Shown piece by piece: positions 3,100 through 37,067 of a stretch of 64,000 nt of DNA. Every line of letters begins with the position of its first letter. The stretch's first letter is position 1. Both the position numbers and the translations under genes were made by a program. The notes under the pieces were generated by a model. It was not told the DNA's origin. It did not search any database and saw only the letters and a program-made list of their open reading frames with translations. The stretch comes from Antedon mediterranea (Eukaryota; Echinodermata; Crinoidea; Comatulida; Antedonidae): the NCBI RefSeq assembly GCF_964355755.1, contig NC_092677.1, positions 11,802,601 to 11,866,600 of the forward strand, in the 5' to 3' direction.

Positions 3100-6000
3100 A
3101 TGGATATGGGCCAGGCTGAAGAGGCTCAAAATATTGAGAATCCAGAAGAACAAGTAACAGTGCAGCACCCAGAAAAATTAGTTAATGAAACACCAGAATC
3201 ATTTGTTAATGGGTTTAATTTAGGTAAGAAAGATCGGTACGGTGTGGTAACGTAGGCTAGGCTATAGGTAGGTAGTACTACTACTACTACTAGTATAGGC
3301 TAGTAAGTATTAGGGAGATATAATTATAACCAAACAGTAGTCTATACTAAGCTCTAGGCCTACTACTAGGCTCTAGTTAGAAAATTTGCCAACAATTACT
3401 AGGCCCTAGACTTAGATATACCTGATCTTTTTAAAAAGAGGTACAATTTAATTTATTATAAAAATGTCAAATGAATATTTATGGATTTATATTACTTATT
3501 AGGAATAGGCCTAGGCTAGGCTTAGTCTTAAATTAGTTAGTAATAGTTAGTAAGTCTAATAATAATATATATAGCCTATAGGCCTTCCTCTAGGCATATA
3601 TTTAATTATTTTTAAAAAGAAATAAAATTATTACAGTTTTCCACCCATGTCGATTTTGAGTTGGTTTGTCTTTTTCTAGACCAACGAAAAAGGCTGGGTA
3701 AATTATAGATATAGCCTAAAAGGAATCTGATTAAATTTTACAATAAAATGGCCAGATTTTTTTCGCATCTTCAATAATACAGTTTTAAAATAGAATACCA
3801 AATTATCAATTATAATTATTTATATTTATATGTACGGTATATCCTATTTCAGTGACTGAAATTGTTGTAAGCTATGGATGGTACGTCATATTAGCGGTTG
3901 TTGTCATTTTTTACCTGCGACACAGGTTTAGATCCAACATCTCACAGTTGATGAAAGAAAAAAGTGACCGGGATTATTACAAAAAATATGGTAGGTGGTC
4001 TGTGGTCATGTTTCTATTTTTTTAAATAATTCGAAACGGACATGATTTAAACTCAGGATTTGCCTACTAAATACTATTCCAGGATTCAACTTAAGAATTA
4101 TTTCATCATATTTAGCATTTCATTCTAATGAGATAACCCTTTAGAACAATATAAATTAACATTTTTTAACATGATTTTGTTCTATATAACTGTTTCAAGT
4201 TTCAATTGTGGATCAAATTTGTATTTTTTGTTTAGATACTAAAACTGCTCTTGCACGTCAGGAGGGAAGACAGCAAGCCTTAATGAGAATGCAGGAAGAA
4301 AATGATATCAAGGCAAAGGAACTCTGTGAGAGAGAAATGCAGGTAGCTAAAAAACAATTTGTAACTTTGCTATGGAAAAATAGGGCCCGCAGTTTTTAAA
4401 TGACACTATTTTTCAAACGTCTAGAGAAAAAAAGTAACATGAACAAAAATGGGGTTTTAAACCAATTTTATTCAATAATCAACCCGGAGAGGAGATATGC
4501 ACCACTGGGAGATATGGCTTATGCCTGTGTATCGTATCATGATAACTACTAATTCCCCTATATGAAAGGTGGTGCACTGTATCTCATCTGTTACACCCCT
4601 ACGATCCTCTAGGTCATAGGACAACTAGTACTAGAACTATTCAATAAAACAAAAGGCAATCGGTACATACAGTCACAATCAAACGAGAAAATAGAATCCA
4701 ATAAAACTAGCCAAAACAAAAGGGTCATAGCAATTCACATAAAGAAATATATTGTATATCCTCTGATATAATCCCAACCCCCTAGAACACGAAATTGGGC
4801 TCTTCTGGGACTACACCCGGGGAAAGAAAGATTAGTAAGCATTTCTTGTAAAAAATGGCTCGAGAGATGCCTACATCCAGATCCAAACTCAATACTGGGA
4901 CTACACCTGGGGATATGCATGTTTGTGAAAAGACATCAAGTTGGAGAGGCATTAGAACCAAACAGTTTAATAATTCTTTTTATCTTTAAAAATACTGTAC
5001 TGCTATAAACCCCTAAATTGTGGCATCTGGGATTTATTTTTGCTTAAATTAATGACAATTGTTTTATAGAAAGAAGAGGAGAAAAAATTGCAAAGGATAG
5101 AAGAATGGGAGAACCATAAACAAGGGAAAGCCTACCGCTCCAAGCATTACCAACCAAAAGTAAGTTTGATTAAAAATGTTCATCTGTTTTTGGAAATTCA
5201 TAAATTATTAATTCTTTTAAAAAAATAAAAAATTAGCGAAACTAACCTGCTTGACAGTTTCGGACAGCTTTTCCTGCTTGGACAGCTTTTAGTTAGACAG
5301 AATTGGCCCCTAGAGGTCAATCTGTTTAATGACATATTTGTCGTTTCTTCTGAAGAAGTTGTCCAGGCACGATAGCGAAACTATCAAGCAGGTTAGTTTC
5401 GTTTTTTGTTTATTCAAAAAGGAATTAATAATTCAAAAGTTTTGTTTACCTTGTTTAGGGCTGTTTTTGTGATTTTGTTTCATTTACTTAAATTGCGATT
5501 ATTTATCAAAACTTATAAACCGTACAGAAATTATTTGTCGTTTTTAAACCTTGTTTAGGAAGAAGAACCAGTTTCGACGAGTCAAGAAAAGAAACCTAAG
5601 CCTAAATCAACATTCCGGCCTGATGGTAAAAACATAATACTGTATTTAAACCATTTCCTCTCTCAGTTACCTTCAAAAATTTATTTGACAAAATGTTGGG
5701 AAAATATTTATTTTTTAAAAACCTTATAAAATAAATTTATTTTTAGATAATTGGAATCACCAAATAGAAACTGTTCACATTATTTTTCATACAATATAAA
5801 AAATATTAAAATTTGAATATGAAAATTTGCTTGAATGAAATTAAGATGATACGGAGGAGTAATTTAACAACTTAAGCTCTGTCTACACTATGTGCCCATA
5901 TATGGAAATGATGATGATGTCATATTACTACCATATTTGGCCATATCACTACTATATTAGGGCACATGACACTTTTTTTGTCAAACTTGTTTGATAGTGT

Positions 6001-6220
6001 AGCTTTCGTGGCCACTGTTGTGCACATGGCTAGTAATTTTACATTAAATCAACCCAGTTACTGAACGTATCCTTCAGTAGTTGTTTATTATTGATAAGAA
6101 AAACTATTTATCATTCATTTCCGATTGTTTTTAATTTCAGATTACAATCCTTTAATGGGCATTGCACGCAGCAATGGTTTTCGACCTCGTCAAAGGTCAA
6201 GCCGAGGCGGATGAGGTTAA
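3100..6220 (+). CDS. SELENOS: Selenoprotein S (VIMP), complete, UGA read as selenocysteine
   Basis: Six exons, 3100-3223, 3853-3990, 4236-4342, 5070-5159, 5559-5625 and 6141-6220, join in one frame of 202 codons. SELENOS is a single-pass ER membrane protein that links p97/VCP and Derlins in ER-associated degradation. Residues about 42-65 (SYGWYVILAVVVIFYLRHRF) form the membrane helix; a charged coiled coil follows (ALARQEGRQQALMRMQEEN, then EEEKKLQRIEEWE), then a GKAYR..KHYQPK linker and DYNPLMG near the end, as in the human protein. The last codons read GGA-TGA-GGT-TAA: UGA 6212-6214 is selenocysteine 200 of 201, matching the penultimate Sec of vertebrate SELENOS. Stopping at the UGA would remove only two residues. 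The start is the first ATG after the shared promoter. Introns hold two MITEs. Confidence 0.95.
5202..5434. mobile_element. MITE with ~60-bp terminal inverted repeats in SELENOS intron 4
   Basis: The arms 5202-5263 and 5371-5434 are near-perfect reverse complements. Both include GAAACTAACCTGCTTGA and an outer TTATTAATTC block. The centre is unique and non-coding. This is a non-autonomous DNA transposon; the superfamily is not determined because the target duplication merges with the AT-rich ends. Confidence 0.8.
5873..6006. mobile_element. Palindromic MITE, family M1, in SELENOS intron 5
   Basis: It starts TTAAGCTCTGTCTACACTA and ends TTGATAGTGTAGCTTTCG, with the family's inner palindrome of GTGCCCATATATGG and TAGGGCACATGACAC. 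It lies 134 bp upstream of the last coding exon. Confidence 0.8.
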
Positions 6221-6221
6221 A

Positions 6222-6338
6222 GTATGCAAGTTAAATGCTAATGAGAGAAGACGCTGTTTGATTTCAGATCTGCAAGTCTTTGTATATTTCCCAAGCTGAG
6301 ATTAAACCAATGGTCTTGCTCTCTTTTAACTTGCATAC
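6222..6338 (+). promoter_or_regulatory. Long hairpin immediately after the SELENOS stop codon
   Basis: The 14-mer GTATGCAAGTTAAA at 6222-6235 has an exact reverse complement at 6325-6338. Inside it, GAGAGAAGAC (about 6244-6253) can pair with GTCTTGCTCTC (about 6313-6323) with one bulge. The stem starts 8 nt after the Sec UGA and 2 nt after the TAA. Human SELENOS mRNA has been described with a stem-loop near the UGA that influences recoding, so a similar role is possible here. It lacks a SECIS core, so it is not the SECIS. Confidence 0.6.
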
Positions 6339-6354
6339 ATTAAAATTGAAACAC

Positions 6355-6988
6355 TTAAAGCCCCATTCCCTACGTTTTTTAGATCTAATTTAAGATCACA
6401 AACTATATTTAATGTAAAAATAATACTATATGGTCCTATTGCGATAACTTTTTTCGTCTTTAAACGGTTAAAAATGTGGAAAATAAATCGATTTTAATAA
6501 TTATAGCGGCCCGCTATAAATCCCAAAATGCATTGCGCGCGGATTGATATTTTTGTTTTTCACCTGTAATTCGCCCACTTTTCGATCGATCGTGAAGCCA
6601 AAACAAATGGAAGACTCCTAACTTTTCAGCGAAAATACCGGGTTTTCCCCAATATTTATCAACGGAGTCTGGCAAAAATAGAAAGACAATTAATGCAGCA
6701 ACTATACAACGTCAGGCTAGGTATATAGCTAGCGTACGATGTTTGTACGTTACCGATGTTTACCAGCTAGGCCTACAAAACTAAGCCTAGCTAGGCTAGG
6801 CCTGAGACCGTCCACGAGAGGTCGATCGCCGCGAGCTACTTAGGTAGTGCATTGTTTCTCACTTTTTATCATAATTTACCATAAAACGTACATTTAAGAC
6901 AAGGAATGACATGGTTTAATGTTTTTAAAGTGATATATATGTATTATTTTCCAAAAAACGTCCAAAATTGCAGGGAAGGGGTCTTTAA
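6355..6988. mobile_element. TTAA-flanked MITE, family M2, copy 1 (in SELENOS 3' UTR)
   Basis: The element is bounded by TTAA at 6355-6358 and 6985-6988. Its ends are inverted repeats (AGCCCCATTCCCTACG against GCAGGGAAGGGGTCT). It shares about 560 bp with the copy at 8818-9381, including GGTCCTATTGCGATAAC and a GCGGCCCGCTATAAATCCC block. It has about 70 bp near 6550-6620 that copy 2 lacks. A TTAA duplication suggests piggyBac-like mobilisation; a TA duplication with one base more of inverted repeat cannot be excluded. Confidence 0.8.
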
Positions 6989-7214
6989 GAGATAGATTTC
7001 ATTTGTAACACCTTGTTATATCCAGAACTAAACACAGGAACAATTTATGTATCTTTATTCTTCAACATCATGCTATGATCTCTACTGCTCTCAACCACTA
7101 CTCTTGTTCCCCTCTTGCATAATATCCACAACTAAGCACAAGAAACACACTGTATTAATAATAAACAATGTACAGTATTTATCTTTATTGGTCACTCTCT
7201 AAACTTATGCTGAG

Positions 7215-8326
7215 CAGTGGCGGATCTAGGATCTAACGAGGGGGGGTGGCCACGAAAGTGGCAAACGAGGTGCGTAGCACCGAGCGGGGGAGGGTTTGGG
7301 AGGGGGTGTCCCCCTCCCGAGGCTCCGAAAATTTTTGAAAAAATAGATGCTTACACACTGTTTAATAGGCTAGAGAAACTGTTTCCATCACACTTAATAA
7401 CAAATATTACATAATGTAAATTTAAATACATCCTTCCTAAATACTGTACGGATCTTTTTCGACGAACTAATAATAAACTTTGATCGAAAAACCTTCAAAC
7501 AAAATGAACATTTGGTAATGCGGTACTCCGAAAATGCCTCGATAGAGTGCATGTGTTGTGTACCGTGTTTTGGTGGTCTGTTAACCTCAGAGATATATAC
7601 CCTACAGCCGGGTGAATAACTCAATGTAATTTGGTATACAATGATCGCAGTAATCGCCGTGTCTATAACACAAATCAAAAAACGCCAAATACGCCACATA
7701 CTTTTTTCGGCCGTCCCGTGTACATACAAGACATTTCATGTTTATTTTATGCCTATAAAATAATAAAAGAACACCATGTTTCTCGTTTATTTTTATCGTT
7801 TATACTGCATACCATAATATTATACAAAAAACTTTCATGCGCGAGAAAAAAGTTCCCGATATTACACTCCACTCAGGGGTGTAAATATACCACGCTAACG
7901 CTTGTGCACACACGGACCAGGGCGGCGGAAATTAACTGCAATGGAAAATGGTGTATTTTGGAGAGTGATGACGTCAGCATTCACACGAGGAGCGAGCTTG
8001 ACAACGTGACGCTGGTAGTTTTAGGAGTGCGTGTGTTTTGAAAATGGGTATTTTCCAAAGATTGTAAATCGTGTTTTCTTTTTAAACTCTTGAATTCATA
8101 ATAGTAATTGAACTCTTAGCTCTTTCACTGTGTAGGCCTATTTACACACAACTATTAATGCTAACCCTAGCTCTAGTAGGGCCTAGCTAGGCCTACTCTT
8201 CTTAATTAAAAGATTAATCCACGTCTAGCGACGGTCAATCGCGATTAGGTTGCATCTTTTTTTTTTTTTTTGAGAATTAAGGGGGGTGGCTAGCCACCCT
8301 ATTCACCCCCCCTAGATCCGCCACTG
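7215..8326. mobile_element. hAT-like non-autonomous transposon (CAGTGGCGGATCTAGG ends)
   Basis: The ends CAGTGGCGGATCTAGG at 7215 and its reverse complement ending at 8326 form terminal inverted repeats with a G/C-rich run inside (GAGGGGGGGTGGCC and GGGTGGCTAGCCACCC). The CAGNG start is typical of hAT elements. No clear 8-bp target duplication is visible. No transposase is encoded; an open frame at 7631-8041 shows no domain. It sits between the SELENOS stop and its SECIS. Confidence 0.65.
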
Positions 8327-8680
8327 CTGACCTCTACCGCCCTCAACCTTTACTCTTCTTCCTTTCTTACTTATTCACTACTGAATATATCAATTTCAAT
8401 ACAGTATTCATTGCCGATACTCTATACTTGTATACTGCCCTCATCTGTTAGGTGTTTCAAATTGTTTTTTTGGTAAACTGACTCAATTTTGTCCTTACAA
8501 AACTGCATCAATATACATCAATTTTATTATAACTAGTCACTTTAACACTACAATTTGTTTTGTTGTCATTTTTAATTGTTTTTTTTAAATTTCCTTTTTA
8601 TTGCAGTATTCTATGTTTTTTCTCTTTTAATAGTAATAATTAAAATAATCTAGTTTTGTAAGGACGAGATGTTAGTCTAA

Positions 8681-8725
8681 ATGAAGCGTATCATGTAAAT
8701 AGATGTTACTAACATGTTATGCTGA
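8681..8725 (+). promoter_or_regulatory. SECIS element of SELENOS (type II)
   Basis: The core is ATGA 8681-8684 and TGA 8723-8725. Between them, 8686-8696 (GCGTATCATGT) pairs with 8712-8722 (ACATGTTATGC) over 11 positions with one G-U and one U-U mismatch. An AAA bulge at 8697-8699 follows, then a 3-bp mini-helix (TAG 8700-8702 with CTA 8709-8711) closing a 6-nt loop. The spacing of 12 nt from ATGA to the unpaired AA fits the eukaryotic SECIS consensus, and the mini-helix makes it type II. The helix below the core is less clear. It recruits SBP2 and directs selenocysteine insertion at UGA 6212. Confidence 0.85.
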
Positions 8726-8759
8726 GGAAAGCTTGCCAGAATCCAATAATATTATTTAT

Positions 8760-8765
8760 AATAAA
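8760..8765 (+). terminator. Poly(A) signal of SELENOS
   Basis: AATAAA lies 35 nt after the SECIS core and before the next transposon copy. It would place the SELENOS 3' end near 8780 and give a 3' UTR of about 2.56 kb if unspliced. Confidence 0.6.
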
Positions 8766-8817
8766 TTATAATTCAGTTTAACCTTGTGTCGTTCTTTAAT
8801 TTAAATAACCAGTTACG

Positions 8818-9381
8818 TTAAAGACACCTTCCCTACATTTTTTAGATCTATTTTAAGATCACAAACTATATTTAATCTAAAAATAATACTATATGGTCCT
8901 ATTGCGATAACTTTTTTCGTCTTTAAATGGTTAAAAATGTGAAAAATAGGTCGATTCTAATAATTATATAGCGGCCCGCTATAAATCCCAAAATGCATTG
9001 CGCGCGGATTGATAACTTTTCAGCGAAAATACCAGGTTTTCCCCAATTTGTATCAACGAAGTCTGGCAAAAAAAGAAAGACAATTAATGCAGCAACTATA
9101 GAACGTCAGGCTATGTATATAGCTAGTGTACGATGTTCGTACGTTACCAATGTTTACCAGCTAGGCCTACAAAACTAAGCCTAGCTAGGCTAGGCCTAAA
9201 GACCGTCCACGAGAGGTCTGTCGCCGCGAGCTACCTAGGTAGTGCATTGTTTCTCACTTTTTATCATAATTTACCATAAAACGGAGATTTAAGACAAGGA
9301 ATGACCTGGTTTAATGTTTTAAAGTAATATATATGTATTATTTTTACAAAACGTCACAAATTGTAGGGAAGGTGTCTTTAA
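8818..9381. mobile_element. TTAA-flanked MITE, family M2, copy 2
   Basis: It is bounded by TTAA 8818-8821 and 9378-9381, with near-perfect inverted ends: AGACACCTTCCCTACA against TGTAGGGAAGGTGTCT. It is in the same orientation as copy 1 (6355-6988) and lacks about 70 internal bp present there. It lies just downstream of the SELENOS poly(A) signal. Confidence 0.85.
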
Positions 9382-9455
9382 CAAAGTGAAAGGTTTGAAA
9401 TTTGGCAATTTTTTGAAGTATTGCCGAAATATAAAAATATGTTGAGGTAAGATAA

Positions 9456-10830
9456 CAAAACATATATCATATCAAGAAATGCATAGAAAAACATATATCA
9501 TATCAAGAAATGAATAAGAAAACATATATCATATCAAGAAATGCTTAATAAAACATATATTATATCATATCAAGAAATGAATAAGAAAACATATATCATA
9601 TCAAGAAATGCTTAATAAAACATATATCATATCATATCAAGAAATGAATAAGAAAACATATATCATATCAAGAAATGCTTAATAAAACATATATCAAGAA
9701 ATGCATAAGAAAACATATATCATATCAAGAAATGCATAAGAAAACATAATATATCAAGAAATGAATAAGAAAACATATTATATCAAGAAATGCATAAGAA
9801 AACATATATCATATCAAGAAATGCATAAGAAAACATAATATCATATCAATAAATGCATAAGAAAACATAATATATCAAGAAATGAATAAGAAAACATATT
9901 ATATCAAGAAATGAATAAGAAAACATATTATATCAAGAAATGAATAAGAAAACATATATCATATCAAGAAATGCATAAGAAAACATATATCATATCAAGA
10001 AATGCATAAGAAAACATATATCATATCAAGAAATGCATAAGAAAACATATATCATATCAAGAAATGCATAAGAAAACATATATCATATCAAGAAATGCAT
10101 AAGAAAACATATCATATCAAGAAATACATAAGGAAACATATATCATATCAAGAAATGCATAAGAAAACATATATTATATCAAGAAATGCATAAGAAAACA
10201 TATAGCATATCAAGAAATGCATAAGAAAACATATATTATATCAAGAAATGCATAAGAAAACATATATCATATCAAGAAATACATAAGAAAACATATAGCA
10301 TATCAAGAAATGCATAGAAAAACATATATCATATCATATCAAGAAATGAATAAGAAAACATATAGCATATCAAGAAATGCATAAGAAAACATATAGCATA
10401 TCAAGAAATGCATAAGAAAACATATAGCATATCAAGAAATGCATAAGAAAACATATAGCATATCTAGAAATGCATAAGAAAACATATATCATATCATATC
10501 AAGAAATGAATAAGAAAACATATAGCATATCAAGAAATGCATAAGAAAACATATAGCATATCAAGAAATGCATAAGAAAACATATAGCATATCTAGAAAT
10601 GCATAAGAAAACATATAGCATATCAAGAAATGCATAAGAAAACATATAGCATATCTAGAAATGCATACGAAAACATATATCAAGAAATGCATAAGAAAAC
10701 ATATAGCATATCAAGAAATGCATAAGAAAACATATAGCATATCAAGAAATGCATAAGAAAACATATAGCATATCTAGAAACATTAAGGAATATAAGGTAA
10801 TATATCAAGAAATATGTAAGAAAATACAAT
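9456..10830. repeat. ~31-bp AT-rich satellite array
   Basis: About 45 tandem copies of a unit made of CATATATCATATC joined to AAGAAATGCATAAGAAAA. Variants are patterned: ATATC versus ATAGC, GCATAAG versus GAATAAG, and some units have an extra ATATCAT. The array decays after 10790. No spacers or open frames occur. Confidence 0.95.
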
Positions 10831-14127: not shown

Positions 14128-16700
14128 AAACCGTAGACACATTTTTCAATATTTTTTTATTCTCATTGTATTGTGATAATGTATTGAAATAAAGACAAAG
14201 ACACATTTTTCAATATTTATTTATTCTCATTGTATTGTGATGATGTATTAAAATAAACACACAGACACATTTTTCAATGATATTTATTTATTCTCATTGT
14301 ATTTTGATGATGTATTGAAATAAACACACAGACACATTTTTCAATATTTATTTATTCTCAATATATTGTGATGATGTATTAAAATAAACACACAGACACC
14401 TTTTTCAATATTTATTTATTCTCAATATATTGTGATGATGTATTGAAATAAACACACAGACACATTTTTCAATATTTATTTATTCTCAATATATTGTGAT
14501 GATGCATTAAAATAAACACACAAGACACCTTTTTCAATATTTATTTATTCTCAATATATTGTGATGATGTATTGAAATAAACACACAGACACATTTTTCA
14601 ATATTTATTTATTCTCAATATATTGTGATGATGTATTAAAATAAACACACAGACACCTTTTTCAATATTTATTTATTCTCAATATATTGTGATGATGTAT
14701 TGAAAAAAACACAGACACAATTTTCAAGTTTTGTGAATGAGGAACTAAATTTATCTTCATTTGTAAATATATAAAAAACATTTACTTTGAAATTAATTGA
14801 ACCGTTTCGGCTAACATCAAATAAATAGAACTTAATTCTCAATATATTTTGATGATGTATTGAAATAAACACACAGACACATTCAATATTTATTTATTCT
14901 CATTGTATTGTGATGATGTATTGAAATAAACACACAAACACATTTTTCAATATTTATTAATTCTCAATATATTTTGATAATGTATTGAAATAAACCACAG
15001 ACACATTTTTCAATATTTATTAATTCTCAATATATTTATTTTCATGATGTATTGAAATAAACACACAAAACACATTTTTCAATATTTATTTATTCTTAAT
15101 GTTTTGTGATCATGTATTCAAATAAACACACAGACACATTTTTCAATATTTATTTATTATCAATGTTTTGTGAATGATGTATTGAAATAAACAGACAAAC
15201 ACATTTTTCAATATTTATTTATTCTCAATATATTGTGATGATGTATTGAAATAAACACACAGACACATTTTTCAATATTTATTTATTCTCATTGTATTGT
15301 GATGATGTATTGAAATAAACACACAGACACATTTTTCAATATTTATTTATTCTCAGTATATTGTGATGATGTATTGAAATAAACACACAGACACATTTTT
15401 AAATATTTATTTATTATCAATGGTTTGTGAATGATGTATATAAATAAAACACAGAAACATTTTTCAATATTTATTTATTCTCAGTATATTGTGATGATTT
15501 ATTGAAATAAACACACAGACACCTTTTTCAATATTTATTAATTCTCAATATATTTTGATGATGTATTGAAATAAACACACAGACACATTTTTCAATATTT
15601 ATTTATTATCAATGGTTTGTGAATGATGTATATAAATAAAACACAGAAACATTTTTCAATATTTATTTATTCTCAGTATATTGTGATGATGTATTGAAAT
15701 AAACACACAGACACATTTTTTTCAATATTTATTTATTGTCAATGTTTTGTGAATGATGTATTGAAATAAACACACAGACACATTTTTCAATATATATTTA
15801 TTCTCAATGTATTGTGATGATGTATTGAAATAAACACACAGACACATTTTTCAATATTTATTTATTCTCAATGTTTTGTGAATGATGTATTGAAATAAAC
15901 ACAGACACATTCTTCAATATTTATTTTGTTAAATGTTTTGTGAATGAGTAAGTATATTTATTGTCATTTGTAAATATATAAAAAAAACATTTACTTTGAA
16001 ATTAATTGAACCGTTTCGGCTAACAACAAATAAATACAACTTAAACTACATGGTGAAACTATCCCCCACCGGACACCATTCCGGTATTTCGAGGTTTCGG
16101 GAAAGTACAAACCTAATGTAAACATGCGTCATTGAAATAAACACACACAAACACATTTTTCAGTATTTATTTATTCCCAATGTATTGTGATGATGTATTG
16201 AAATAAACACACAGACACATTTTTCAATATTTATTTATTCTCCATATATCTTGATGATTTATTGAAATAAACATACAGACACATTTTTCAATATTTATTT
16301 ATTCTCAATATATTTTGATGATGTATTGAAATAAACACAGACACATTTTGAAATATTTATTTATTCTCAATGTATTGTGATGATGTATTGAAATAAACAC
16401 ACAGACACATTTTGAAATATTTTTTTATTATCAATATATTTTGATGATGTATTGAAATAAACACACAGACACATTGTTCAATATTTGTTTATTCTTAATG
16501 TATTGGGATGATGTATTGAAATAAACACACAGACACATTTTCCAATATTTATTTATTCTCAATGTTTTGTGATGATGTATTGAAATAAACACACAGACAC
16601 ATTTTTCAATATTTATTTATTCTCAATATATTTTGATAATGTATTGAAATAAACACACAGACACATTTTGAAATATTTATTTATTTTCAATGTATTGTGA
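14128..16700. repeat. ~64-bp AT-rich satellite array with interspersed inserts
   Basis: About 38 copies of a ~64-bp unit: CACACAGACACATTTTTC, AATATTTATTTATTCTCA, then ATATTGTGATGATGTATTG and AAATAA. Two inserts of about 100-150 bp at 14730-14845 and 15930-16080 share AATTGAACCGTTTCGGCTAAC and interrupt the array in the same way, so they mark a higher-order or older repeat structure. No genes are present. Confidence 0.93.
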
Positions 16701-20075: not shown

Positions 20076-23000
20076 AAGGGTCGAAAATTTGCCATATTTG
20101 AAAAAAACCACTATATGGTTATTATAGCTCAATTGACATGCGCAGAACCCATTATTCGGCTCTGCGCATGTTTATTATGCAATAGTAACCATTTACGTCA
20201 AAAAATAAAAGGGTCGAAAATTGGCCATTTCTCGAAAATTTTCCTGTACTATAGTACAGGGATTTAACAAAAAATGGCAAATTTTCGACCTTTTTATTTT
20301 TCGATAAAACTGGTTACTATAGCACAATTAACATGCGCAGAACCCATTAGTCGCCTCTGGGCATGTTTATTATGTTATAGTAACCATTTATGTCAAAACT
20401 GGTTACCGTAGCACAATTGACAGGCGCATAACCCATTATTCGTCTCTGCGCATGTTTATTATGCAATAGTTTATTTATTTATTTATTTATTTATTTATTT
20501 CCTTTATTGCATCAAGTAAGAAGCAGTGATGAAGTTGACATAAATATAATAGTAAATATGTAAACACATAGTATAACACAGTCCAAACAAGTAATACTAA
20601 AATAAATTATAGTCCACAAATCAGTCTTTCAATGGCCATAATAGTACATCCAGTAACACAAACCAATAGGGGTTCACAATTTGCTTATCATAACTCAGTT
20701 ACTGATCATTCACCAATCATTGAAAACTCCGTGGAAAGTAATTAAGTTTTTTGTGCGTTGTGTCCGGACTTTGGGGAGGGTGAACGATCTAACGCGTCGG
20801 AGCTGATGGTTGTGTGTGGGAGGTTTAGGTAAGTAACCATTTATGTCAAAAAATAAAAGGGTCGAAAATCGGCCATTTTTCGAAAATTTCCCTGTACTAT
20901 AGTACAGGGATTTTCCACAAAATGGCAAATTTTCGACCTTTTTATTTTTCAATAAAACTGGTTACTATAGCAAAATTGATATGTGCAGAACCCATTATTC
21001 GCCTCTGCGCATGTTTATTATGTTATAGTAACCATTTATGTCAAAACTGGTTACTATCGCACAATTGACATGCGCAGAACCCATTATTCGTCTCTGCGCA
21101 TGTTTATTATGCAATAGTAACCATTTATGTCAAAAAATAAAAGGGTCGAAAATCGGCCATTTTTCGAAAATTTCCCTGTACTGTACAGGGATTTTCCAAA
21201 AAATGGTAAATTTTCGACCTTTTTATTTTCCGATAAAACTGGTTACTATAGGACAATTAACATGCGCAGAACCCATTAGTCGCCTCTGGGCATGTTTATT
21301 ATGTTATAGTAACCATTTATGTCAAAACTGGTTACTATCGCACAATTGACATGCGCAGAATCCATTATTCGACTCTGCGCATGTTTATTATGCAATAGTA
21401 ACCATTTATGTCAAAACTAGTTACTATCGCAAAATTGACATGCGCAGAACCCATTATTCGACTCTGCGCATGTTTATTATGCAATAGTAACCATTTACGT
21501 CAAAAAATAAAAGGGTCGAAAATCGGCCATTTTTCGCAAATTTCCCTGTACTATAGTACAGGGATTTTTCAAAAAATAGCAAATTTTCGACCTTTCTATT
21601 TTTCGATAAAACTGGTTACTATAGCACAATTAACATGCGCAGAACCCATTATTCGTCTCTGCGCATGTTTATTATGCAATAGTTACCATTTATGTCAAAA
21701 AATAAAAGGGTCGAAAATCAGCCATTTTTCGAATATTTCCCTGTACTATAGTACAGGGATTTTCCAAAAAATTGTAAATTTTCGACCTTATTATTTTCCG
21801 ATAAAACTGGTTACTATAGGACAATTAACAAGCGCAGAACCCATTAGTCGCCTCTGGGCATGTTTATTATGCTATAGTAACCATTTATGTCAAAACTGGT
21901 TACTATAGCACAATTGACATGCACAGAACCCATTATTCGTCTCTGCGCACGTTTATTATGCAATAGTAACCATTTATGTCAAAAAATAAAAGGGTCGAAA
22001 ATCGGCCATTTTTCGAAAATTTCTCTGTACTATAGTACAGGGATTTTTCAAAAAATTGTAAATTTTCGACCTTTCTATTTTTCGATAAAACTGGTTACTA
22101 TAGCACAATTAACATGCGCAGAACCCATTATTCGCCTCTGCGCATGTTTATTATGCTATAGTAACCATTTATGTCAAAACTGGTTACTATCGCACAATTG
22201 ACATGCGCAGAACCCATTATTCGTCTCTGCGCATGTTTATTATGCAATAGTAACAATTTATGTCAAAAAATAAAAGGGTCGAAAATCGGCCATTTTTCGA
22301 AAATTTCCCTGTACTATAGTACAGGGATTTTCCAAAAAATGGTAAATTTTCGACCTTTTTATTTTCCGATAAAACTGGTTACTATAGCACAATTAACATG
22401 CGCAGAACCCATTATTCGCCTCTGCGCATGTTTATTATGCTATAGTAACCATTTATGTCAAAACTGGTTACTATCGCACAATTGACATGCGCAGAACCCA
22501 TTATTCGTCTCTGCGCATGTTTATTATGCAATAGTAACCATTTATGTCAAAAAATAAAAGGGTCGAAAATCGGCCATTTTTCGAAAATTTCTCTGTACTA
22601 TAGTACAGGGATTTTCCAAAAAATGGTAAATTTTCGACCTTTTTATTTTCCGATAAAACTGGTTACTATAGGACAATTAACATGCGCAGAACCCATTAGT
22701 CGCCTCCGGGCATGTTTATTATGTTATAGTAACCATTTATGTCAAAACTGGTTACTATCGCACAATTGACATGCGCAGAACCCATTATTCGTCTCTGCGC
22801 ATCTTTATTATGCAATAGTAACCATTTATGTCAAAAAATAAAAGGGTCGAAAATAGGCCATTTTTCGAAAATTTCCCTGTACTATATTACAGGAATTTTC
22901 CAAAAAATTGTAAATTTTCGACCTTTCTATTTTTCGATAAAACTGGTTACTATAGCACAATTAACATGCGCAGAACCCATTAGTCGCCTCTGCGCATGTT

Positions 23001-24530
23001 TATTATGCTATAGTAACCATTATGTCAAAACTGGTTACTATAGCACAATTGACATGCACAGAACCCATTATTCGTCTCTGCGCACGTTTATTATCCAATA
23101 GTAACCATTTATTACAAAAAATAAAAGGGTCGAAAATCGGCCATTTTTCGAAAATTTCCCTATACTATATATAGTACAGGGATTTTTCAAAAAATGGTAA
23201 ATTTTCGACCTTTCTATTTTTCGATAAAACTGGTTACTATAGCACAATTAACATGCGCAGAACCCATTATTCGCCTCTGCGCATGTTTATTATGCTATAG
23301 TAACCATTTATGTCAAAACTGGTTACTATCGCACAATTAACATGCGCAGAACCCATTATTCGCCTCTGCGCATGTTTATTATGCAATAGTAACCATTTAT
23401 GTCAAAAAATATAACGGTCGAAAATCGGCCATTTTTCGAAAATTTCCCTGTACTATATTACAGGGATTTTCCAAAAAATGGTAAATTTTCGACCTTTTTA
23501 TTTTCCGATAAAACTGGTTAATATAAGACAATTAACATGCGCAGAACCCATTAGTCGCCTCTGGGCATGTTTATTATGCTATAGTAACCATTATGTCAAA
23601 ACTGGTTACTATAGCACAATTGACATGCACAGAACCCATTATTCGTCTCTGTGCACGTTTATTATGCAATAGTAACCATTTATGTCAAAAAATAAAAGGG
23701 TCGAAAATCGGCCATTTTTCAAAAATTTCCCTGTACTATAGTACAGGGATTTTTCAAAAAAATGGTAAATTTTCGACCTTTCTATTTTTCGATAAAACTG
23801 GTTACTATAGCACAATTAACATGCGCAGAACTCATTATTCGCCTCTGCGCATGTTTATTATGCTATAGTAACCATTTATGTCAAAACTGGTTACTATCGC
23901 ACAATTGACATGCGCAGAACCCATTATTCGTCTCTGCGCATGTTTATTATGCAATAGTAACCATTTATTACAAAAAATAAAAGGGTCGAAAATCGGCCAT
24001 TTTTTGAAAATTTCCCTGTACTATATTACAGGGATTTTCCAAAAATGGTAAATTTTCGACCTTTTTATTTTCCGATAAAACTGGTTACTATAGGACAATT
24101 AACATGCGCAGGACCCATTAGTCGCCTCTGGGCATGTTTATTATGCTATAGTAACCATTATGTCAAAACTGGTTACTATAGCACAATTGACATGCACAGA
24201 ACCCATTATTCGTCTCTGCGCACGTTTATTATGCAATAGTAACCATTTATGTCAAAAAATAAAAGGGTCGAAAATCGGCCATTTTTCGAAAATTTCTTTG
24301 TACTATAGTACAGGGATTTTTCAAAAAATGGTAAATTTTCGACCTTTCTATTTTTCGATAAAACTGGTTACTATAGCACAATTAACATGCGCAGAACCCA
24401 TTATTCGCCTCTGGGCATGTTTATTATGCTATAGTAACCATTTCTGTCAAAACTGGTTACTATAGCACAATTGACATGCACAGAACCCATTATTCGTCTC
24501 TGCACACGTTTATTATGCAATAGCATGCCT
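20076..24530. repeat. 284-bp satellite made of two palindromes
   Basis: The unit repeats at 284 bp spacing (for example landmarks at 21887, 22171, 22455 and 22739). Each unit has two palindromes. Palindrome A runs from GGTTACTAT through CATGCGCAGA and TCTGCGCATG to ATAGTAACC and occurs twice per unit in two versions. Palindrome B runs from AAATAAAAGGGTCGAAAAT through a CCCTGTACTATAGTACAGGG centre to ATTTTCGACC. A LINE 3' end interrupts the array at 20466-20834. Open frames of about 104 codons recur in every unit but shift frame from unit to unit (284 is not a multiple of 3), so they are not genes. Confidence 0.95.
20466..20834 (-). mobile_element. 5'-truncated LINE (ORF2 C-terminus) inserted in the satellite
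   Basis: The minus strand encodes NHQLRRVRSFTLPKVRTQRT followed by KNLITFHGVFNDW and a stop. This matches the usual last residues of CR1/L2-type reverse transcriptase proteins (L.LPRVRT....IRF.G..WN). A 3' region follows and ends in a (TAAA)n tail, which is TTTATTTATT on the plus strand at 20466-20500. Satellite sequence resumes on both sides (GCAATAGT and AGTAACC). Confidence 0.75.
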
Positions 24531-34946: not shown

Positions 34947-37022
34947 CTGAATAAAATAAAAGTATTATAAAAAACCACACGATTTAAATGAGACCATTGA
35001 CAGTGGTGTTACGGATATGAGCGCTTACATGCTAAACCCAGGAGCCCCTGAGCTTATGGAGCCCCTGAGCTTATGGAGCCCCTGAGCAGTGCCTAGAGGA
35101 AAAATATGTCATGTCCTGGCATTAAAATATGTCGAAAAATGCTAAAATCGCCTGAGGCCTCCAGCTTATGGTCTCTATGCTACGCCACTAACCATTGAGT
35201 GTTAAAATGAATGAATTATCATTAAGGTGTGTAGACTTACTTGGTGCACATTGATGACAGCATCCATCCTCTGGTAACATGAGCTCCTCATCCTTAAGAA
35301 AAAAACAAAAATTATTATAATTTATTATAAACTACAGACTACTCATGCTATACAGTGTATCATATATCACAAATTAAGGAATTTAAAGCATTACTTAACA
35401 CAGTTTTAGCATAAAAATGGGAAACATATATATATATATATATATATACTTTATCGTTTTGATTTAGCTTTTCACTTTTTTTGTATCTCCATTGAGATCC
35501 AGCCACTGATACCCACAGCATTGTCATTTTGTATCTCCATTGAGATCCAGCCACTGATACCCACAGCATTGTCATTTTGTATCTCCATTGAGATCCAGCC
35601 ACTGATACCCACAGCATTGTCATTTTGTATCTCCATTGAGATCCAGCCACTGATACCCACAGCATTGTCATTTTGTATCTCCATTGAGATCCAGCCACTG
35701 ATACCCACAGCATTGTCATTTCTTTCAGTAATTTGCCTTTGGATTATATATTTTCTACTGTTTGTACCAATTTTTATCTGATTTTGCTGTAATTATGGAG
35801 GGTACTTTGGATAACTTTACTTTATCCAAATTCCTTCACTTAGTAAGTTACACTTTTATCGTTTCAAATTAATTAATTAAATTTCAGTACATCACCGGGC
35901 GGTTTAGAATTAATGTTCATTGCCTGATGTGTTTATATATATAAAAATATCTCTTCGGAGATCCCGCCTCGTGAATAAAAATACTGAAAGATGAGGGCGT
36001 ATCAATTTGATCTCTGGTACGCGTGCGTACAACTGAGGACTAGTGCTGTTCCACCGTACCACGCCGAGAATGTTAAAGAGTCGCTATCCAATCGAGTTTG
36101 AACAATACCATGAAAGCCCCAGTGGTCTAATGGTTAGGACATCTGCATATCAAGCAGGCGGTCCGAGTTCGAGTCTCGGTTGGGGCGACTTTTTCTCATT
36201 CTCACAGATTTCCTCATCTTTATCGTTTCAAATTAATTAATTAAATTTCAGTATATCACCGGGAGGTTTAGAATTAATGTTCATTGCCTGATGTGTTTAT
36301 CTACATAAAAGTATCTCTTCGGAGATCCCGCCTCGTGAATAAAAATACTGAAAGATGAGGGCGTATCAATTTGATCTCTGGTGCGCGTGCGTACAACTGA
36401 GGACTAGTGCTGTTCCACCGTACCACGCCGAGAATGTTAAAGAGTCGCTATCCAATCGAGTTTGAACAATACCATGAAAGCCCCAGTGGTCTAATTGTTA
36501 GGACATCTGCATATCAAGCAGGCGGTCCGAGTTCGAGTCTCGGTTGGGGCGACTTTTTCTCATTCTCACAGATTTCCTCATCTTTATCGTTTCAAATTAA
36601 TTAATTAAATTTCAGTACATCACCGGGCGGTTTAGAATTAATGTTCATTGCCTGATGTGTTTATATATATAAAAGTATCTCTTCGGAGATCCCGCCTCGT
36701 GAACAAAAATACTGAAAAATGAGGGCGTATCAATTTGATCTCTGGTGCGCGTGCGTACAACTGAGGACTAGTGCTGTTCCACCGTACCACGCCGAGAATG
36801 TTAAAGAGTCGCTATCCAATCGAGTTTGAACAATACCATAAAAGCCCCAGTGGTCTAATGGTTAGGACATCTGCATATCAAGCAGGCGGTCCGAGTTCGA
36901 GTCTCGGTTGGGGCGACTTTTTCTCATTCTCACAGATTTCCTCATCTTTATCGTTTCAAATTAATTAATTAAATTTCAGTATATCACCGGGCGGTTTAGA
37001 ATTAATGTTCATTGCCTGATGT

Positions 37023-37067
<45 letters not shown>

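Follow-up and report, generated by a model that had tools for sequence, protein, structure and literature searches.

Two DNA transposons lie between the Sec UGA and the SECIS of a SELENOS gene in Antedon mediterranea

Can a UGA codon still direct Sec insertion when two transposons have come to lie between it and its SECIS? The question is raised by a 64,000-nt stretch of the Antedon mediterranea genome (354 Mb), positions 11,802,601 to 11,866,600 of the forward strand of NC_092677.1, which we call the window and whose plus-strand coordinates are used below unless another strand is given. A preliminary description of this DNA had drawn attention to the arrangement. The observation is real and was accurately described, and it is ordinary in kind: a SELENOS UTR lengthened by transposons and still inside known limits.

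The coding region of the gene runs from 3100 to 6220 in six exons (3100-3223, 3853-3990, 4236-4342, 5070-5159, 5559-5625, and 6141-6220), which splice into a 606-nt reading frame that is open up to the UGA. The protein before the UGA matches Pfam PF06936 (Selenoprotein_S) over residues 38-198 with an E-value of 1.6e-34 and a score of 119.9 against a cut-off of 29.8 bits, in agreement with the original SELENOS call. In the spliced exons the UGA at 6212-6214 is followed in frame by GGT (Gly, 6215-6217) and the stop codon TAA (6218-6220), as the preliminary description had it, and the protein would end in RSSRGG-Sec-Gly. The SELENOS family is marked by a penultimate Sec UGA, a Gly codon, a stop, and a SECIS 3′ of them; here all four parts are intact. 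Judged by its sequence, the locus is most likely a working SELENOS selenoprotein gene into whose product Sec is inserted. Upstream of it, on the minus strand at ~1920-2890, lies a Pterin_4a (pterin-4a-carbinolamine dehydratase) gene (E 2.4e-32, with the translation made by eye). One SELENOS intron holds a strong inverted repeat at ~5241-5426, segments of which are among the more stable folds of the window outside a satellite described below.

The SECIS at 8681-8725 was assessed by our own motif scan, by folding, and by a random-sequence control. Its parts are ATGA, a helix in which 11 of 12 positions pair (one as G-U) and the other is a T-T mismatch, an apical AAATAGATGTTACTA carrying a mini-stem, and GA; it hence has the ATGA and GA core, the helix of ~12 bp, and the AA in the apical loop of a eukaryotic SECIS. 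With a score of 22.3 it was the top of three places reaching at least 15 on both strands of the window. Forty 64-kb random sequences drawn from a Markov-1 model of the window's dinucleotides (2.56 Mb in all, scanned on one strand) yielded 21 places at 15 or above, 10 at 17.8 or above, and none at 22.3 or above, placing the SECIS far above chance. Folded as 48 nt, it was matched in stability by 3 of 200 shuffles (z -2.87); with 86 nt of context its energy was unremarkable (z -0.89; 37 of 200 shuffles), with the helix still present in the predicted fold. The mean pair probability of the helix was 0.89 in the full 2,645-nt last exon and likewise 0.89 when the transposons were left out.

Rfam did not report this SECIS, either at gathering thresholds over the entire window or up to E 10 in 6000-9000, where four weak matches all fell far under their cut-offs; nor was it among the 150 scored of 6,437 candidates when the genome was searched with RF00031. 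We do not take the missing match to exclude a SECIS because RF00031 also placed the SECIS of a Sec GPX gene just under its cut-off (34 bits against 35). The element proposed in the preliminary description is thus upheld by the scan, for which 2.56 Mb of random sequence gave no equal, with the Rfam models silent. Its accompanying poly(A) signal, AATAAA, is indeed 35 nt 3′ of the SECIS, at 8760-8765, and is followed by a GU-rich stretch (read from the sequence). The distance from UGA to SECIS is 2,466 nt, matching the ~2.47 kb given before.

Other parts of the Sec machinery are present in the genome. At least two tRNA-Sec matches exceeded the Rfam cut-off among the 53 scored of 14,012 candidates. 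The GPX gene has an exon reading NVASQ-UGA-GFTVKN and a SECIS 77 nt past the stop of what is presumed to be the same gene, with a scan score of 17.8. A SELENOW-like CxxU gene (188-2491 of locus L031) has a putative SECIS at 2449-2491 of that locus (scan score 15.6), and its UGA would be ~0.9 kb of mRNA away if this SECIS is right and the 3′ UTR unspliced. RF00031 gave three matches in the genome among its 150 scored of 6,437 candidates, one of them the GPX SECIS. Another lies ~0.35 kb beyond a Sep15_SelM exon, and there our scan found nothing at 10 or above, so its sensitivity is limited. The third (L004) is probably false, with no selenoprotein gene seen upstream by eye. A separate observation concerns other tRNA genes: a 364-bp tandem array at 35855-37035 of the window (3.2 copies, 98% matches) carries three, which ARAGORN calls tRNA-Asp with the anticodon ATC, unusual for Asp.

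We then turn to what separates the UGA from the SECIS. The 634-bp TTAA-flanked MITE noted earlier lies at 6355-6988 (plus strand), its length counting both copies of TTAA. Of 1,833 candidates in the genome 40 were scored, and these included 39 other copies with 99-100% identity over nearly the full length. This copy and a second one in the window (see below) both have the terminal inverted repeats and the duplicated TTAA target of a piggyBac-like MITE, a family name that we use provisionally. The second insertion is a non-autonomous DNA transposon of 1,112 bp at 7215-8326 (plus strand) with the ends CAGTGGCGG.../...CCGCCACTG and a longest stop-free stretch of 141 codons. Its best other copies are 99% identical, the remaining long ones at least 90%, and a single short genomic piece 78% (40 scored of 204 candidates). 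A 5-bp direct repeat flanks it, the two sides agreeing exactly in seven of eight other copies examined, and at 4 of 5 bases in the remaining one and in the window copy (CTGAG/CTGAC). The 1.1-kb element of the preliminary description is therefore there, and its label as hAT-like needs amending, since a typical hAT, which the CAGTGG ends recall, makes 8-bp target duplications and is ruled out by the 5-bp ones. Elements with 5-bp duplications and CAGTGG ends presumably belong to a hAT5-like group known from repeat databases, and this family name is also provisional. In their terminal inverted repeats, target duplications, and many near-identical copies, the two insertions resemble TTAA-flanked (piggyBac-like) MITEs and DNA elements with 5-bp duplications.

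Because both are nearly identical to sister copies in the genome, their sequence suggests that the insertions are young, although such similarity is not a date. When they are removed and one copy of each target is kept, the UGA-SECIS distance becomes 719 nt (2,466 - 630 - 1,117), as the earlier estimate of ~0.7 kb had it. The two insertions thus appear to have stretched the gap about threefold.

A further feature, absent from the preliminary account, lies directly 3′ of the UGA: a hairpin at 6217-6343 (plus strand) with 41 pairs and -41.1 kcal/mol, like an SRE or SL1 in position. Its continuous stem begins at 6222, 7 nt past the UGA and at the GT of a candidate splice donor. The segment 6205-6350 folds at -42.1 kcal/mol with a z-score of -3.55, and none of 200 shuffles was equally stable. 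There is accordingly a stable stem-loop a few nucleotides past the UGA, as in a Sec redefinition element or SL1, which stands out less against the whole window, where its GC-corrected z-score was -1.98 and 80 of 1,597 overlapping segments were equal or better. Most of these rivals fall in a palindromic satellite at ~20-25 kb, and the hairpin has one match in the genome. The satellite, at 20832-24523, has a 284-bp unit in 13 strongly palindromic copies (88% matches) and is the site of many of the window's most stable RNA folds.

According to PMC3628699, the stem-loop of human SELENOS starts 9 nt past the UGA, and its removal greatly lowers Sec insertion in vitro; a splice donor lies 8 nt into the UTR, inside the stem; and the selenoprotein mRNA is variant 2, with an unspliced 3′ UTR. 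The Antedon gene is similar to the human one, as described there, in its penultimate Sec, Gly, and stop, in the SECIS in its 3′ UTR, in the stem-loop just past the UGA, and in the donor within the stem. It differs in that the continuous stem starts after 7 nt rather than 9, in that the hairpin spans ~127 nt whereas the human stem-loop lies within the first 50 nt, and in having two transposons in the UTR. The alternative splice of human SELENOS removes the SECIS, whereas the candidate acceptors discussed below are 5′ of it. By analogy with SL1 in human SELENOS, the hairpin probably helps recoding; the two are alike in position, with homology and function putative.

Spacings of the length seen here have been described. 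According to PMC3316567, mammalian UGA-SECIS distances span 207-5,207 nt and average 872 nt, Dio2 having the longest average. The stretched 2,466 nt lies within the range known to work, making the locus a natural example and not a new mechanism. The likeness to Dio2 is in the kilobase spacing; here the length comes from recent-looking transposons, and the distance would be ~0.72 kb were they gone. Among the papers that our literature search covered, we saw none dealing with transposons that separate a UGA from its SECIS.

We consider it probable, and rank first, that an unspliced long 3′ UTR, lengthened by the two transposons, still recodes the UGA. Two non-autonomous DNA transposons would recently have lengthened the SELENOS 3′ UTR, and the last exon would be transcribed across them and left unspliced from 6141 to ~8780. 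The SECIS would recruit SBP2 and EFsec and the UGA would be recoded across ~2.47 kb of mRNA, aided by the hairpin just past it. Transcription across the insertions, the lack of splicing, and recoding are the parts of this account that we infer.

Alternatively, the transposons could lie in a 3′ UTR intron, for example from 6222 to 8606 or 8633, which would bring the SECIS close to the UGA as in SELENOK and SELENOW. A primate-like splice matrix gave poor scores to the true introns of the AT-rich SELENOS gene, and we therefore built reference sets from this genome. The 19 donors and 20 acceptors in them come from the five introns of SELENOS, the two of the Pterin_4a gene, one further exon upstream, which contributed an acceptor alone, and Ras-family genes, which gave 6 junctions from one batch and 6 of 9 from another; of the three left out, one had no convincing donor and two came from the gene of a junction already kept or from a close paralogue of it. 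The donor matrix was pulled toward primate frequencies by shrinkage. Close to the stop, the single plausible donor is aaa/GTATGC at 6222-6223 (plus strand), whose GT comes one base after the stop codon and within the hairpin stem. It is weak: at -0.49 it outscores one of the 19 reference donors and, in a smaller set of 13, none. On the other side, two acceptors of ordinary strength, near the middle of the reference set, would make 8607 or 8634 the first exonic base (plus strand; scores 4.22 and 4.03, with 10 of the 20 reference acceptors above 4.22); they are 74 and 47 nt 5′ of the SECIS.

With splicing from 6222 to 8607 or 8634, the UGA-SECIS spacing would shrink to 81 or 54 nt and the mRNA would no longer have the hairpin. 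In PMC3316567, vertebrate SECIS elements are mostly in the exon that holds the stop, and there are also genes with a split 3′ UTR (SelK, SelW, SelV, SelT, SelH, and TR3): SelK is spliced right at the stop, and the SelW SECIS of mammals is in a separate exon whose start is on average 38 nt from the SECIS core. The Antedon locus resembles them in a possible donor at the stop and in acceptors shortly before the SECIS; in those genes splicing has been shown, whereas here it is only possible. Both a long and a spliced UTR therefore have precedents in these sources. The predicted 81 or 54 nt is below the mammalian minimum of 207 nt, and within the 51-111 nt reported there as the minimum spacing for Dio1.

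That introns tolerate transposons, as is generally known, speaks for splicing, and acceptors placed as before a SelW-like last exon, together with higher-scoring donors elsewhere in the UTR, count against an unspliced one. Such donors are found at 6721 in the MITE (2.72), at 7612 in the second element (2.52), and at 8473 (1.97), and the region's best acceptor, at 8275, is in the second element (7.69); introns other than 6222 to 8607 or 8634 are thus possible. Junctions far 3′ of a stop codon would invite nonsense-mediated decay. Against splicing at 6222, a genome-wide search for a retrocopy of the mature mRNA, made with two segments of the last exon and its flanks (6141-6356 and 8330-8816), found each segment only at its own position, in a search that skips very common words. 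Since the donor is weak, sits in a strong hairpin that its use would destroy, and would leave a spacing below the mammalian range of 207-5,207 nt, we put the unspliced UTR first and regard the intron, second in rank, as rather unlikely. The preliminary description had named the right pair of alternatives, and on these three grounds the sequence leans to the unspliced one.

The coincidence of donor and stem would also allow the hairpin to act as a switch, an idea to which we give little credence: when closed, it would hide the donor at 6222, and the UTR would stay long, retaining the transposons and a hairpin that promotes recoding; when open, the UTR would be spliced just before the SECIS. The open form would lose the hairpin and the transposons and have its SECIS at 54-81 nt. 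One gene would then give two SECIS-bearing mRNAs of very different geometry, and transposons would be free to accumulate in the optional part.

In a third reading, most of the mRNA stops short of the SECIS, its 3′ end lying within the transposons or ahead of them. Hexamers before the distal AATAAA, which also count against a working unspliced UTR, comprise four AATAAA, of which one is in the MITE (6482), two are in the second element (7472, 7762), and one is in neither (7160), and four ATTAAA, at 6301, 6339, 8205, and 8639; the silence of Rfam on the SECIS is a further point against the unspliced-UTR account. In human cells, according to PMC3628699, 5-16% of SELENOS mRNA is without the SECIS. 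The protein would mostly stop at the UGA, and the Sec of SELENOS would be in the process of being lost or be made only from a minor form. Against this, the UGA, Gly codon, stop, and SECIS have been retained, although insertions as recent as these may not yet have caused decay, and the GU-rich stretch follows the distal AATAAA. We judge this reading to be improbable and place it third, after the unspliced long UTR and the intron.

Loss of the SECIS might nonetheless come about by another route. The second MITE copy, at 8818-9381 (plus strand), lies just 3′ of the poly(A) signal in the orientation of the first and has TTAA at both ends; the two are identical at 525 of 560 aligned positions (93.75%), with a longest identical run of 50 bp. 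The SECIS and its poly(A) signal thus lie between two copies in the same orientation. From this arrangement, recombination between them would be expected to delete ~2.46 kb including both, leaving a protein that ends at the UGA, a possible route to Sec loss.

The close match of the two insertions between UGA and SECIS to other copies in the genome makes it probable that they arrived recently, and they may still be polymorphic. Alleles that carry or lack them would form a natural experiment on whether a spacing of 0.72 kb or 2.47 kb makes a difference to Sec insertion in a native gene. Beyond the SECIS, the second MITE copy is followed closely by a 31-bp tandem array (42.9 copies) and, further along, by tandem arrays with a 64-bp unit, the 31-bp and 64-bp arrays together occupying 9452-10780 and 14135-16700 of the window.
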